DNA from: Candidatus Gastranaerophilales bacterium
Lineage (GTDB): Bacteria > Cyanobacteriota > Vampirovibrionia > Gastranaerophilales > Gastranaerophilaceae
Assembly (NCBI GenBank): GCA_944323365.1
Contig: CALUSG010000049.1
Coordinates: 1-50,606, forward strand
Length of the DNA stretch: 50,606 nt
Direction of reading: 5' to 3'
Below are positions 13,787 to 49,092 of this stretch, piece by piece. Positions within the stretch are counted from its first letter, which is position 1, and each line of letters starts with the position of its first letter. The notes beneath the pieces were generated by a model that was given only the letters and a program-made list of their open reading frames with translations, was not told the origin of the DNA and ran no database searches. Both the position numbers and the translations under genes were made by a program.

Positions 13787-14131
13787 TTAACAAACGGATG
13801 AAAATCCGCCGCCTCCTCCACCGGAAGAAAATCCTCCACAGCCTGATGAGCCGCCGCAAAATCCTCCAAAACTTGCACCTCCAAGTGTTGAAATAGCATT
13901 AGAAAATGAGGCTAAAAAACCACCGCTTACATCAGAACCTTCTGTTGTTGAATACATACTGTAGTCAACTGCAAAAGGATTACTTGCTATAAATTCGTCA
14001 TATTGTCCCATAGTTAATAATCCGTCTGAAAATAACATAGCAAGTGAACCGGATGTTTCAACTATTTCTGATGGTTTTTGAGTTTCATTTACATAAGATC
14101 TTTCGTTTGGCTGCTGTGTTAGTGTGATCAT
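13787..14131 (-). CDS. Small protein with a Gly/Ser/Cys-rich C-terminal tail
   Basis: From ATG 14131, preceded by GCGAGGA, the protein is 114 residues. Residues 1-80 are ordinary and acidic (ending GSDVSGGFLASFSNAIS); the last 35 are almost only Gly, Ser, Phe and Cys, with cysteines in GGFCGG, SGCGG and the final SVC. There is no signal peptide. The tail recalls microcin B17-type precursors or Gly-rich tails of surface proteins, but no cyclodehydratase, dehydrogenase or exporter gene is nearby. A plain low-complexity tail that binds or anchors is equally possible. I do not recognise the family. Confidence 0.65.
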   Translation of the reverse strand: MITLTQQPNERSYVNETQKPSEIVETSGSLAMLFSDGLLTMGQYDEFIASNPFAVDYSMYSTTEGSDVSGGFLASFSNAISTLGGASFGGFCGGSSGCGGFSSGGGGGGFSSVC

Positions 14132-14309
14132 TGTTTTATCCTCGCTTACATTTATATAAAGTTTTTTAATTTTATTGAATTTCAGCATGGAGTACTTTTG
14201 TAACATAATTTAACATATATCTAAAACCATTGACCGGTTAAAATAAACCCAAAGATTGATGATAGAATAGCGAAAATAATTTACTATGAATGTGTAAAAG
14301 GGGATAGTT

Positions 14310-28427: not shown

Positions 28428-28691
28428 TTATGCAATTACGTTTAATTTTTTAGCGTTAAAACCTCCATTACTTTCAAAATTAATACTTCCTTGCGGATCA
28501 TATTGTTCTAAATCAAAACCTTTATTTTCAGTTTTTTTAGTATTAACTTTATTAATACCCGATACTGCAACAAAATTATTGTACTCACTATAGCTGATTA
28601 CACCGTCTTCATCCTTGTCATATTTATCAAAAGTTAATTGATCCATTCTGCTTAAAGATGCACGGTCCATACCTTGATAAATGTTTAACAT
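28428..28691 (-). CDS. Small EF-hand calcium-binding protein
   Basis: 87 residues with a canonical EF-hand loop in DKYDKDEDGVISYSEYNNF (loop about D25-E36: D-x-D-x-D-G-x-I-x-x-x-E), preceded by a helix. The C-terminal half is Asn/Gly/Lys-rich without a second recognisable loop. No signal peptide. AGAGGAGC is a good ribosome site. Bacterial single EF-hand proteins often act as calcium buffers or as parts of secreted assemblies; here the role is unknown. Confidence 0.75.
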   Translation of the reverse strand: MLNIYQGMDRASLSRMDQLTFDKYDKDEDGVISYSEYNNFVAVSGINKVNTKKTENKGFDLEQYDPQGSINFESNGGFNAKKLNVIA

Positions 28692-30156: not shown

Positions 30157-30594
30157 ATGCAAATAAATAGAATAGGTTTTGAGCCGAATTTTCAGGCAAA
30201 CTTTGTAAGAAATAACAATATGGAAAAAATTACTGACAATATTTTAAGCAATAGTGATGATGAAGGCAAAGAATTGGTTTCTGAATTAGAACAGCTTGCA
30301 GCACATCACAAAAATGCTTTATTGCTAGTGGATGTTGTTCCTGAACGTACAATAAAGGGTATAACATTAAAACCCGAATATGTAATGACAAATTTAAAAA
30401 CAAACAAAAGTATCACTGTTCCTTTAGATGAATTTGATATAAACACAATAAAATCTTTAAATAATAGCAGCAGTAAAAATTACCAAACATTATTTGTAAA
30501 TGATGAAGTTAAAACTAATTTGAACAAATTAATGTCAAAGTATTATGTTGATGAAAAATTAGTATATAAAAAGAAAACTCATTCTTCCAAATAA
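30157..30594 (+). CDS. Uncharacterised small protein with the NFxA-type N-terminus
   Basis: 145 residues: MQINRIGFEPNFQANFVRNNN at the start, then a mixed helical/strand domain (HHKNALLLVDVVPERTIKGITL...YVMTNLKTNKSITVPLDEFDI) and a basic tail. There is no signal peptide. The start region resembles those of the genes at 32964, 33540 and 34099 (short Met-x-Ile-x(n)-Asn-Phe-x-Gly/Ala), which may be a shared targeting element. The rest is not related to them by eye. A strong AAGGAG site precedes ATG. Its 3' end overlaps the convergent permease gene by 16 bases. Confidence 0.7.
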   Translation: MQINRIGFEPNFQANFVRNNNMEKITDNILSNSDDEGKELVSELEQLAAHHKNALLLVDVVPERTIKGITLKPEYVMTNLKTNKSITVPLDEFDINTIKSLNNSSSKNYQTLFVNDEVKTNLNKLMSKYYVDEKLVYKKKTHSSK

Positions 30595-31487: not shown

Positions 31488-32918
31488 ATGCAAAAATATA
31501 ATCAGGCTTTTGGTAAAAATGATATAAGAGGAATTTACGGAAAAGATATAACAGAAGAACTATATTACAATATCGGAATAGGATTTATAGAATGGCTTAA
31601 AAAAAAGTCTGCCAAAAGCCCGTCTGACATGACATTAACCATATGCCGTGATGCGAGATTACATTCGCCAAGCCTTTCCAAAGCGTTAATTGCCGGCATA
31701 ACCTCAACAGGAGCAAAAGTTATTGACCTGGGTCTTGCACCGACACCAATAGGTTACTATTCAGAAGTTACAATGTCTGAAGTTATATCTGCTATGATTA
31801 TAACGGCAAGCCACAATCCAAGCGAATATAACGGATTAAAAATGACATATCAACACCAAACTTTGAATGAATTGCAAATAAAAGAAGTTAAAGAATTGAC
31901 ATTCAAACACTGGTCTGATGCTTTTCAACCGGCAAATAATGAGCTTATTAAAGAATATGACATAATACCTGTGTATATTGAAGATATGAAAAAACGTTTC
32001 GGATATATAGGAAAAGGCTTAAAAGTAGTTGTAGACAGTGCAAATGCGACAGGAGGCCTTGTCGGACCAAAATTATATAGAGAGCTTGGTTGTGAAGTTA
32101 TTGAATTATATTCCGAACCTGACGGAACATTTCCAAATCATCACCCGAACCCCAGTGATTTAAAGACTTTAAAAGATATAGAAAACGCAGTTAGAGCAAA
32201 TAATGCTGATGTAGGTATAGCCTATGACGGAGACAGCGACAGAATAGGTGTTGTTGATACTAACGGAAATCCTTTAACAGGTGATAAGCTTCTTTTAATA
32301 TATGCAATGGATTTAATTTCAACAAGCAGCTTAAAACCAACTGTTGTATCAGAAGTAAAATGTTCGCAAGTTCTATACGACACAATAAATAAAACAGGTG
32401 CAAAAGCAATAATGTGCAAAACCGGACACGGATATATAAAAGAAAAAATGAAAGAAACAGGTGCTATTTTAGCAGGAGAAATGAGCGGCCACACATTTTT
32501 TAAAGACAGATACTATGGATTTGATGATGCAATTTATGCCGGTTGCCGAATAATAGAAATTATTGCAAAAAATAAAAAGAATAATTCAGATTTCAAAATA
32601 CAAGATTTATTAAAACCATTTGACGCTGTATATACATCTGATGAGGTACGTTTTCCCTGTGCAAATGAGTTAAAAAAAGCAGTTCTAGAAAAATTAAAAG
32701 AATATGTAAATAATAATAGAGCCATGTTTGGCAGTGAAATAAAGGATATAATTACACTTGACGGAATGCGAATAGTTTTTGACGGCGGCTTTGCACTTAT
32801 AAGACAAAGCAATACAGAACCAGTGTTTACACTGCGTTTTGAGGCTAAAACAAAAGATGAATGCCTGCATATAAAAAAATGTATGCTTGATAAACTTGAA
32901 GAAATTATTACAAACTAG
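31488..32918 (+). CDS. manB: Phosphomannomutase/phosphoglucomutase
   Basis: The 476-residue protein has the four-domain phosphohexomutase signature: FGKNDIRGIYGKDI at the N-terminus, catalytic serine loop TASHNPSEYNGLKM (about 101-114), metal loop AYDGDSDRIGVVD, sugar-binding loop GEMSGHTFF, and C-terminal phosphate-binding RQSNTEPVFTLRFEAK. It interconverts hexose 1- and 6-phosphates for glycan and nucleotide-sugar synthesis; the family does not tell mannose from glucose by eye, so the symbol is provisional. GGAGAGG precedes the ATG, which is divergent from the permease. Confidence 0.9.
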   Translation: MQKYNQAFGKNDIRGIYGKDITEELYYNIGIGFIEWLKKKSAKSPSDMTLTICRDARLHSPSLSKALIAGITSTGAKVIDLGLAPTPIGYYSEVTMSEVISAMIITASHNPSEYNGLKMTYQHQTLNELQIKEVKELTFKHWSDAFQPANNELIKEYDIIPVYIEDMKKRFGYIGKGLKVVVDSANATGGLVGPKLYRELGCEVIELYSEPDGTFPNHHPNPSDLKTLKDIENAVRANNADVGIAYDGDSDRIGVVDTNGNPLTGDKLLLIYAMDLISTSSLKPTVVSEVKCSQVLYDTINKTGAKAIMCKTGHGYIKEKMKETGAILAGEMSGHTFFKDRYYGFDDAIYAGCRIIEIIAKNKKNNSDFKIQDLLKPFDAVYTSDEVRFPCANELKKAVLEKLKEYVNNNRAMFGSEIKDIITLDGMRIVFDGGFALIRQSNTEPVFTLRFEAKTKDECLHIKKCMLDKLEEIITN

Positions 32919-32963
32919 CAAAAAATTAATTGACTGATTTTATAAGACTAAAAGGGTATAATT

Positions 32964-33515
32964 ATGCAAGTTAAATTATCAGACAGAACTAATTTTAATG
33001 GTATATATAAACTTACTTATTCAAAAGCAAATTGTGAAAGCATGAAATCAATTGTTTCCGATTATATGAAAAAGAAAGAAAAACCCATATTAATATTTAA
33101 TGGATCAAATCCTTTAGTTGAAAAAATAAATAAGCAACTGAACCAACATATTGAGGCTTTAGGTTATTCAAATGAATGGTTTGAAAATAATGCCTTCATT
33201 CATCACGTAGATATATATGAACTTAAAAGGAACCCCATATATGTTTTTACAACCGAAGAAAGTATTAAAAAACTACATAATTATTACCAGAAACAAATGA
33301 AATTAAAGAATTCATTATATACTAAAATAAAGAGATTTTTTATTCCAAAGAAAAAATATCCTGAGGATTTGCCTAAACACTTAAGATTAGCATTTGATTT
33401 ACTTAAATATAATAAAAAAGAAAATGAAATATTTCAAAAATTTATAGAAAAAGAAGATGTAAAAAATTTTAATCATTCTATTGATCTGTACTTTGCGTTA
33501 ATGAAGGAAAAATGA
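32964..33515 (+). CDS. NFxG-type small protein, first of three tandem paralogues
   Basis: 183 residues: MQVKLSDRTNFNGIYKLTYS at the start, then a domain with NPLVEKINKQLNQHIEALGYSNEWFENNAFIHHVDIYELKRNPIYVFTTEES, a basic helix and a C-terminal helical region (LPKHLRLAFDLL). The layout (NFxGIYK start, N-P...I-N-x-x-I, EWxxxNAxxHxx, xxFTT/IITT, LPxHL) matches the two following genes, but with low identity, so it is the most diverged copy. No signal peptide and no known domain. AAAAGGG lies upstream of the ATG. Confidence 0.75.
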   Translation: MQVKLSDRTNFNGIYKLTYSKANCESMKSIVSDYMKKKEKPILIFNGSNPLVEKINKQLNQHIEALGYSNEWFENNAFIHHVDIYELKRNPIYVFTTEESIKKLHNYYQKQMKLKNSLYTKIKRFFIPKKKYPEDLPKHLRLAFDLLKYNKKENEIFQKFIEKEDVKNFNHSIDLYFALMKEK

Positions 33516-33539
33516 TAATTAAAAAATTTAGGAGATTAT

Positions 33540-34088
33540 ATGCAGATCAACAATAATATAAATTTTACAGGAATATAAAAAATCCCTCTAAACGATAAAA
33601 ATTTGAAAGAGATAAAACAATATGTTTTACCAATGTATAAATATTTAAGGCAGGAAGAGGTCCTCGGGTTTCCCGGCGAAAATCCAATGAAAATGTTTAT
33701 AAATGAACGAATAAACTTACTGGCAGACATAGCCGGCGGTTCTAAAGAATGGCTTATGATGAATGCAGAGCACCATAATGTAAATACAGATTTTCTTGAA
33801 GATAAGTTTATGCATATAATTACGACAAAGAACGACATTTTAAGTCTTAAAAACTTTTTTCTAGAAAAAACAAAAAAACGTATAATACTAAAGCAAAAAA
33901 TTAAAAATCTGTTTAAAAAGCCTGAAAAACCCAATATAAATAAATCTTTGCCATTACATTTACAATTATTGGAAGAAATCATTAACATAACTCAAAAAGA
34001 GAATTCTCATTTTACTCAATTTTCAGGTGATAGAATAGTTAAAGTAAATGATACAAAAGAACTTTTAACAAAAATGTTAATGGAATAG
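33540..34088 (+). pseudogene. Middle NFxG-type paralogue interrupted by an in-frame TAA at codon 13
   Basis: From ATG 33540 (good AGGAG site) the first 12 codons read MQINNNINFTGI, then TAA at 33576-33578, then KIPLNDKNLKEIKQYVLPMYKY in the same frame to a normal stop at 34088. The next gene has TAC (Tyr) at that point (NFTGIYKIPLS), so one C-to-A change makes the stop. The rest is intact and about as long as its neighbours, with no other lesions. The only later start is a TTG at 33603 without a ribosome site. It is a recent nonsense mutation, a sequencing or assembly error, or read-through. Confidence 0.75.
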
Positions 34089-34098
34089 AGAATTATAT

Positions 34099-34644
34099 AT
34101 GAAAATAAATAACAATATAAATTTTACAGGAATATACAAAATTCCTCTAAGCGAAAAGAATATAAAAGTAATAGAAGAAGATTTTTTGCCAATGTATAAA
34201 TACTTCAAACGTGAAGGATGCGATAGCTTTATTGGCGAAAATCCGATAAAAACATTAATTAATGAAAGAATAGACAAACTGGCCGAAATAGCCGGCGGTT
34301 CCAAAGAATGGCTTATGGCAAATGCCGAAGTTCATAATATAAATACTGATGTGCTTGATGATAAAGACATACATATAATTACAACTAATAAAGAAATAAA
34401 ACGTTTTAACAAATTTTTTTCCAAAAGAGCAATAAATACTTTAATATTTAAGATTAAGAACAAATTTAAAAAAACTGAAGAGCCAAACACAAATAAATCT
34501 TTGCCGACACATTTACAATCATTGGAAGCAATTATTAACCTAACTAAAAAAGCAAATTCCGATTTCAAAAAGTATTCGGAAGACAGAATAATTAAAGTAA
34601 ATGATCTGGATGAGCTTTTATTAAAAATGTTAAAGGAAGAGTAA
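34099..34644 (+). CDS. NFxG-type small protein, third tandem paralogue
   Basis: 181 residues: MKINNNINFTGIYKIPLSEKN at the start, PMYKY near 32, GENPIKTLINERIDKLAEIAGGSKEWLMANAEVHNINTDVL (52-92), DIHIITTNKEI, a basic helix (about 110-130) and the C-terminal LPTHLQSLEAIINLT...IIKVNDLDELLLKML. It is closely related to the preceding interrupted gene throughout (GGSKEWLM, NERI, LPxHLQ and KVND are shared). There are no cysteines, signal peptide or membrane segments. The domain is unknown to me. It follows the middle copy by 10 bases. Confidence 0.78.
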   Translation: MKINNNINFTGIYKIPLSEKNIKVIEEDFLPMYKYFKREGCDSFIGENPIKTLINERIDKLAEIAGGSKEWLMANAEVHNINTDVLDDKDIHIITTNKEIKRFNKFFSKRAINTLIFKIKNKFKKTEEPNTNKSLPTHLQSLEAIINLTKKANSDFKKYSEDRIIKVNDLDELLLKMLKEE

Positions 34645-34804
34645 ATTGTTCTTAAAGACATATTGCAAATAAAAATTGTTTATGTTAAATTAATTATGTC
34701 AGAAAAGTTACTCACGAATATTTTATCAATAGCTATAAATAGCTTTATTTTGATGTATTCGTACCCGATAAGAAATCACATTAAACTAATGAAAGGTAAA
34801 ATCA
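34645..34804 (+). other. Leader region of rpsE
   Basis: 160 bases between the last paralogue and rpsE. It contains the palindrome AGCTATAAATAGCT (34731-34744) followed by TTTATTTT, which could be a weak terminator for the paralogues. I see no convincing promoter and no gene; a reading frame of 65 codons crossing into rpsE looks spurious. Confidence 0.4.
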
Positions 34805-35476
34805 ATGGATTTAGAAAACAAAGACGAAATTACAGTTTCACAAGAAGAAAATGTAGCTGAAGAAACTGAACAAGTAACAGAGGAAGTAATTGAAGAAGTA
34901 GCAGAAGTTACAGAAGATGCCCCTCAAGAAAGACAATCAAAACGCAGATCAAGAAGCGGCAAAAAACAAAGAATAGAAACAGTAGAAGAAAAACCGCAAA
35001 GCGAATGGACAGAACAAGTAGTTCAAATAAGCCGTGTAACAAAAGTAGTAAAGGGCGGAAAGAAATTAAGTTTTAGAGCCATAGTAATAGTTGGAAACAA
35101 AAAAGGCCAAGTAGGTATAGGCTGTGCAAAAGCTGCAGAAGTAATAATAGCAATACAAAAAGCAATAGCTGACGGCAGAAAAAATCTTATCACAGTACCT
35201 ATATTCAAAACAACTATTCCGCATCCGATTACAGGTAAATCAGGAGCAGGAGCAGTAATGTTAAGACCGGCCTCACAAGGTACAGGTATCATAGCAGGTG
35301 GTGCTGTAAGACCTGTATTAGAACTTGCAGGTATTGAAAATATATTAGCAAAATCATTAGGTTCAAAATCACCTTTAAATGCAGCTTACGCAACAATTAA
35401 CGCATTAAAAGCTTTGACACCGTTTAATGAAGTAGCTAAAAAACGTGGATTGACAATGGCTGAATTATTAAACTAG
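34805..35476 (+). CDS. rpsE: 30S ribosomal protein S5 with a long acidic N-terminal extension
   Basis: The 223-residue protein is S5 from about residue 67 on ([47 protein letters not shown] ... [19 protein letters not shown] ... [10 protein letters not shown]). Before it come about 65 residues not in E. coli S5 (166 residues): an acidic run ([20 protein letters not shown]) and then a basic one ([14 protein letters not shown]). S5 helps set decoding accuracy and 30S assembly. AAAGG precedes the ATG. The usual rplR (L18) does not precede it. Confidence 0.95.
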
Positions 35477-48282: not shown

Positions 48283-49092
48283 ATGACAATAAGAAATGCG
48301 ATAAACTTTTCGAGACCAACTCAATATACAGTGCACATGACACGTAATTATTACGTGGGCACACCTCATGCCCCCAAGAAAGCGAACAACGGGGCATTTT
48401 GGGGAACAATGGCTGCCACCGGTTTGTTGAGCATGCTACAGAGTTTATTAACGACATTTCAACCGAAAATACAACCAACAGCCCCATCGCCATTTCAATA
48501 TAGCAACTATCAGCCGGGGCCACCTCCTGAGGCTCCTCCTAAGCCGGGTCCTGTGAAGCCTCCTAAGCCGGGTCCTACGCCGGCAGCTGAAGAACCTAAA
48601 CCTGAAGAGCTGGCAGAATTGACTGCAGAGATACCTACATATAGGAAAGAAGAAAAACCAAGTAACTATGTTCAAGTTAACACAATTCCTTTTGGTGGGC
48701 CTTGGCATTATGCACAATATTATAAGGACGAAAATGGTCAAAAAATTTCACTTTCAGATCCTGCATTTAACGAAATTGTAAAATTACTTCAAAATGGTGA
48801 TTTACATGAAGTTGAAGGCAACCGAAAATTAATGGTTATGCCAAATAAAATTACTATAGGTGGAAAAACATTTACATTAATGAACCCTACCGAGCGTAAC
48901 GCATTAAATTTACGAGGCAATGATGGAGGTAATGATACAAGATACGCAACGCAAACTACAGATTCTACTTGGGATGTTTATGAAAAAAAACCTGATGAGC
49001 AAGAAACACTTATAAAAAGTGGTTTAACCGAGGCACAAGCAAACAAACTTATTGCGGACAAAAAAGAACAAGCAAAGGAAGCCGAAACATAA
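48283..49092 (+). CDS. FWG-motif protein with a proline-rich linker
   Basis: 269 residues: a basic/aromatic N-terminus (INFSRPTQYTVHMTRNYYVG), a short hydrophobic segment NNGAFWGTMAATGLLSMLQSLL (35-56), a proline/glycine-rich linker (79-111, PxPP and KPGP units), then a compact domain (about 125-210, PFGGPWHYAQYYKDENGQK...GGKTFTLMNPTERNALNLRG) and an acidic helical tail. Hydrophobic segment and FWG placement match the next gene (GSFWGAFGGGFIGGLLGSF), so the two are related in this part. It could be a surface or exported protein without a classical signal peptide. Function unknown. The weak GAGAG ribosome site and promoter-like element support the start. Confidence 0.72.
   Translation: MTIRNAINFSRPTQYTVHMTRNYYVGTPHAPKKANNGAFWGTMAATGLLSMLQSLLTTFQPKIQPTAPSPFQYSNYQPGPPPEAPPKPGPVKPPKPGPTPAAEEPKPEELAELTAEIPTYRKEEKPSNYVQVNTIPFGGPWHYAQYYKDENGQKISLSDPAFNEIVKLLQNGDLHEVEGNRKLMVMPNKITIGGKTFTLMNPTERNALNLRGNDGGNDTRYATQTTDSTWDVYEKKPDEQETLIKSGLTEAQANKLIADKKEQAKEAET

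Follow-up and report, generated by a model that had tools for sequence, protein, structure and literature searches.

Three neighbouring genes of a Candidatus Gastranaerophilales bacterium encode small proteins with a shared N-terminal opening. They lie in contig CALUSG010000049.1 of assembly GCA_944323365.1, whose positions 1 to 50,606 (50,606 nucleotides) were analyzed as one stretch and are referred to here as the window. The openings MQVKLSDRTNFNGIYK, MQINNNINFTGI*K (the asterisk is a stop) and MKINNNINFTGIYK, together with the common elements EW[LF]..NA and LP.HL, are found as a preliminary description of the locus had given them, except that the frame of the middle gene is interrupted (Table 1). 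Codon 13 of the middle copy (33576-33578) reads TAA in frame, against TAC in copy 3, and the intact frames in the trio are those of copies 1 and 3 only. The frame of copy 2 stays open 3' of the TAA, and the ORF caller begins this copy at a TTG at 33603. Across 180 aligned codons, copies 2 and 3 differ at 70/180 third positions and at 69/360 first and second positions. Per site, differences are thus roughly twice as frequent at third positions, and the stop is therefore either a recent event or an assembly error. Copy 3 shares 62% identity with copy 2 and 30% with copy 1, and the three are paralogues along their full length, which explains why both internal elements are common to them. The trio is therefore one body and one family rather than three independent bodies, and it reflects ordinary gene duplication.

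Table 1. Positions of the tandem genes, their N-terminal tags and the other genes compared (window positions unless a locus handle is given)
Feature	Location	Strand	Basis or remark
Tandem copy 1, 183 aa, MQVKLSDRT-NFNG-IYK	32964..33515	+	ORF; homologous to the other two copies
N-terminal tag of copy 1, residues 1-13	32964..33002	+	conserved F and G columns in homologues
Tandem copy 2, TAA-interrupted	33540..34088	+	read from sequence
Tandem copy 3, 181 aa, MKINNNI-NFTG-IYK	34099..34644	+	ORF, homology, model with an alpha/beta fold that begins at residue 12
N-terminal tag of copy 3, residues 1-11	34099..34131	+	alignment of homologues, predicted structure
Unrelated 145-aa protein, bipartite tag MQINRIGFEP-NFQA-NF	30157..30594 (residues 1-14 at 30157-30198)	+	ORF, tag rule
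269-aa protein that begins MTIRNAINFSRP and resembles the tag only in part	48283..49092	+	outside tagged set
Stand-alone FlhA-C, one window-genome copy	L189:17542-19008	-	GH77 gene after it
Stand-alone FlhA-C, other window-genome copy	L191:5545-7020	+	GH77 gene after it

Homologues of the trio family occur in 14/16 genomes of the genus, with one to three copies each. In most genus genomes with checkable flanks, they are located between a phosphomannomutase-like gene and the gene for ribosomal protein S5 (rpsE). The corresponding site in the window (31488-35476) is a place of local duplication. In an alignment of 20 homologues that share 23-60% identity with copy 3, conservation reaches at least 90% in the columns of the motif's F and G, which rank with the best-conserved ones. 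The linker between start and motif varies in length across this alignment, and intact homologues retain the motif; two copies with TTG starts open with MRINSINTTPPKPAFKGK and MNITPINTLNTKNQRTPFKGK. Searches of Pfam, NCBIfam, PHROGs, and PADLOC gave neither a match over the cut-off nor a convincing score. The predicted structure of copy 3 (pLDDT 83.7) has an alpha/beta body from residue 12 and low confidence at residues 1-5. It matched nothing among solved or viral folds, an absence that does not show a new fold. A phage or defence origin of the family was considered and rejected, as there was no PHROGs or PADLOC family, no relative on viral contigs in a single-sequence search, and no viral fold match.

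The same kind of opening precedes an unrelated body in the gene at 30157 (MQINRIGFEPNFQANF), as the preliminary description had noticed; its product belongs to no Pfam or NCBIfam family over the cut-off. The gene at 48283 (MTIRNAINFSRPT), which had been named with it, is a weak case, since NF is present but not followed by x-[GA]. Two further small proteins of the window are encoded on the reverse strand, one at 13787-14206 that ends in a Gly/Ser/Cys-rich tail (GGSSGCGGFSSGGGGGGFSSVC) and one of 87 aa at 28428-28691 with an EF-hand-like stretch (DKYDKDEDGVISYSEY).

Gene calls made with a simple script covered 692-774 kb (approximately 45%) of the 1.70 Mb window genome. Further protein samples were obtained from 400 kb of a congener (G010), from 37 stretches (approximately 710 kb) of other genera of the family, and from controls. 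Removal of homologues reduced 1,915 proteins to 1,279 homology clusters. Among proteins starting with M[KRQTN][IV], the top-ranked gapped triple in residues 4-34 was NF.G (10 occurrences versus 0.40 expected), a motif that had not been preselected. In homologue-free starters of this type, NF.G in residues 4-38 was found 11 times versus 0.50 expected (22-fold, p=8e-12), compared to 8 versus 4.7 expected in the remaining homologue-free proteins. The variants NL.G, NI.G, NY.G, and DF.G were not enriched in the 1,279 homologue-free proteins, so the motif is F-specific. The N-terminus as a whole is bipartite and consists of M[KRQ][IV]xx[IV], a variable linker rich in Asn/Ser/Gln, and then [NSP]F[KTQNS][GA]. 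An M[KRQNH][IV]xx[IV] start and an [NSTPA]F[QTKSNRGE][GAR] element co-occur with an odds ratio of 7.8 (p=5e-8, pooled). Gly/Ala at the last position is not absolute, as Arg is found there in the GH77 family. A looser rule yielded 34 tagged proteins in 28 body clusters, a few of them plainly false, and extrapolation from this count suggests approximately 30 tagged proteins per genome. The codons of the motif vary, which indicates that selection acts on the protein and rules out an RNA-level element. The preliminary description had allowed that composition alone might account for the motif; it is instead strongly over-represented at N-termini and occurs on more than 20 unrelated bodies. Its reading as a sorting or secretion signal agrees with these two results, with the variable distance from the start, and with the varied codons as far as sorting is concerned, whereas secretion would be a further, deduced step.

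The tag precedes complete bodies, enzymes included. In a tagged second GAPDH (L081:18195-19385), the Rossmann domain starts approximately 20 residues later than in the canonical copy, which is encoded elsewhere in the genome and untagged. This second enzyme is divergent and keeps the active-site Cys and His. It shares 92% and 85% identity with proteins from Candidatus Gastranaerophilales MAGs, and between orthologues with 85% identity three linker residues differ while both halves of the tag are kept. A tagged protein of 1,347 aa contains a GH13-like stretch, and its relative in another genus is tagged too. In a tagged metallophosphatase (L083:3678) and a tagged amidohydrolase, the domain starts directly after the tag, which in the metallophosphatase stands at the place of a signal peptide. 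The other tagged bodies include AAA-type proteins, proteins with predicted membrane segments, and small unknowns. No hydrophobic window of 19 residues was found within residues 1-45 of any of 28 tagged proteins; the tag is therefore of a non-Sec type. The first 14 residues are Asn/Ser/Gln-rich and Asp/Glu-poor, a composition partly set by the regular expression, and tagged proteins are poor in Cys (0.70% versus 1.29%, p=0.008). Five tagged genes, two of them AAA/ATPase-like, are clustered at L055:7245-11214 in two opposite operons.

Enrichment is strongest in the genus of the window. In 779 genes from other genera, it is weak at the protein level: a strict expression gave 4 matches versus 0.96, a loose one gave 10 with F versus 11 with L, and co-occurrence of the two tag halves was not significant (odds ratio 2.5, p=0.22). 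A DNA pattern was also used, consisting of a ribosome-binding GG, the start, a polar or basic residue, an aliphatic residue and NFxG, with the reversed pattern as control. An initial pattern, ATGN{9,36}AAYTTYNNNGG, was too loose (224 versus 172 in the control) and was superseded by the one with the ribosome-binding GG. In the 130 genomes of the family (f1), the latter gave 675 matches versus 209 in the control (3.2-fold), counts in which the frame is not enforced and overlapping matches and related genomes are not independent. The pattern was not enriched in the sister family f3 (4 versus 10), and in the photosynthetic families f29 and f12 it gave 64 versus 48 and 219 versus 194, respectively. 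As protein-level enrichment is weak outside the genus, the family-wide case rests mainly on the DNA pattern. We conclude that the opening serves as a two-part sorting tag at the N-terminus, which is well supported in the genus and probably holds across the Gastranaerophilales family f1.

A candidate reader of such a tag is found among the flagellar export proteins. Full-length FlhA (FHIPEP) is encoded in 16/16 genus genomes and flagellin (Flagellin_N) in 1/16, the window genome having none. In the window genome, FliE and FliH adjoin FlhA, and we take the genes at L065:12458 and L190:12061, recognised by eye only, to be FliF and FliI. The rod-type proteins of the genus are mostly a short pair. 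At L065:8670-14471, FliH, FliE, and a FliF-like protein accompany a divergent FlhA (approximately 720 bits), and flagellin is absent. Proteins starting MGMAxxQAR.L..TAR are encoded at L065:17581-19649, beside basal-body genes, and at L068:15058-16221; they are possible structural export substrates. The only flagellin-bearing genus genome (G001, C37 and C22) additionally encodes hook-type proteins and a further, partial FlhA, which may reflect contamination. Partial flagellar sets without filament genes have been described in Gastranaerophilales and interpreted as loss (PMC3787301, PMC4040986). Lineage and genes are the same here, but FlhA falls into two score classes in the family, approximately 720 bits in nearly every genome and approximately 865 bits additionally in some genera. 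These classes suggest that the FlhA kept everywhere belongs to a second, separate system.

In addition to full-length FlhA, and in this order only, the genomes encode a stand-alone FlhA-C protein of 489 aa. It matches FHIPEP (PF00771) with 176.8 bits versus a cut-off of 29.1, over positions 316-653 of the 657 in the profile. Its model resembles FlhA-C structures in Foldseek (E 8.6e-22, TM 0.81-0.84 by target). Compared to the FlhA/SctV cytoplasmic domain, profile and fold are alike, whereas the N-terminal membrane domain is missing and the protein has its own, very conserved N-terminal domain with a faint DUF4177 resemblance. It is present in 129/130 f1 genomes and also occurs in the sister family f2, whereas f3 and the photosynthetic cyanobacterial families sampled lack it, which makes it order-specific in the sample. 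G266, the sole sampled genome that lost it, has 2 matches to the tag DNA pattern versus 2 in the control, which is suggestive with n=1. A GH77 gene lies directly downstream in 28/30 loci. Its product has a tag-like start, M[RQKHL][IV]..., followed by F-x-R-[RHK], and both window-genome copies conform.

As the best single mechanism, we tentatively propose that the tag directs export through a flagellar-type type III secretion system (T3SS) without a flagellum and is read by FlhA-C; we hold this at somewhat below even confidence. A divergent FlhA with FliE and FliH would represent an export system retained without a flagellum in the genus of the window, together with the soluble protein that has the FlhA cytoplasmic domain, a docking site for substrates and chaperones in known systems. 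The tag would be bound by the stand-alone FlhA-C protein or by the export gate, and the bound proteins would be fed out of the cytoplasm with the tag uncleaved. Both the reading of the tag by FlhA-C or the gate and the exit of tagged proteins from the cell are inferred from co-distribution within one clade, one conserved operon, and analogy. The gate-recognition motif of early flagellar substrates contains Phe. Early flagellar subunits have a two-part N-terminal signal, and FlgD of Salmonella needs at least 24 residues between its hydrophobic start and the gate motif (PMC8983047). Like this dual signal of FlgD and FlgE, the tag has two short N-terminal elements, a variable linker, small aliphatic residues at positions 3-5, and no Sec signal. 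Unlike it, the second element is [NS]F[x][GA], and the bodies are enzymes and unknowns instead of rod and hook subunits. In known systems, FlhA-C is the platform on which export substrates dock (PMC9431611). The non-flagellated Lysobacter enzymogenes has a working flagellar export apparatus (PMC7277350). Both cases have export gate genes without flagella, and those of Lysobacter function in another role; here, they are family-wide, and a dedicated FlhA-C paralogue accompanies them together with a candidate tag for substrates.

Several results speak against the T3SS reading. Co-distribution of tag and machinery is one clade-level event, with which any order-specific gene would correlate, and f3 has FlhA but not the tag. 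The two tag elements are often 2-20 residues apart, below the spacing required in Salmonella, and the GH77 start has F-x-R instead of F-x-G. GAPDH, GH77, and GH13-like enzymes would suit cytoplasmic glycogen use equally well. This last point leads to another, rather unlikely reading, namely that the tag acts as a sorting signal inside the cell and gathers these enzymes by binding to a scaffold or polar structure, to a glycogen body, or to a shelled compartment. Several of the recognisable bodies are indeed glycolytic or alpha-glucan enzymes, and GAPDH keeps its active site as expected for an enzyme used in the cell. Many tagged bodies are nevertheless non-metabolic, as the AAA-type proteins, those with predicted membrane segments and the small unknowns illustrate, and the metallophosphatase, of a type that is often exported, bears the tag at the expected site of a signal peptide.

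If tagged proteins do leave the cell, they might take a route other than type III export, such as a type IV pilus or type II-like system or an unknown ABC exporter, or the tag might be cut by a protease at F-x/G. There is a single secretin, which has pilus-type neighbours, and the variable residues after F, followed by a small one (G/A), resemble a cleavage site. Substrates of pilus and type II systems need a hydrophobic segment for Sec entry, which tagged proteins do not have, and we consider this family of routes improbable. A contractile injection system was ruled out as the route, because the sheath family is absent from the window genome; it occurs in just 3/16 genus genomes. The least probable reading is that of a clade habit without one receptor, in which duplication of short N-termini, or a translation-start preference, adds to a low chance background. 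The weak protein-level enrichment outside the genus would fit this, and some tagged genes are local duplicates (L055:7245-10964). It is at odds with the 22-fold enrichment after homologue removal, the specificity for F, the varied codons and positions, and the retention of the motif in homologues down to 23% identity.

The open-access papers searched describe neither the motif nor a type III system for Gastranaerophilales. The most complete form of the T3SS proposal is a clade-wide export code of these non-photosynthetic gut relatives of cyanobacteria, with an uncleaved bipartite tag on approximately 30 unrelated proteins per genome, a soluble FlhA-C hub, and a flagellum-free T3SS; taken as a whole, it is a possibility that we regard as doubtful. 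If true, it would provide a sequence rule to predict the exported proteins of an abundant and almost uncultured gut lineage. It would also explain why all members retain a partial flagellar export apparatus, which was earlier read as decay. The type III signals known so far are poorly conserved in sequence, and the tag would then be a rare one whose motif can be recognised.
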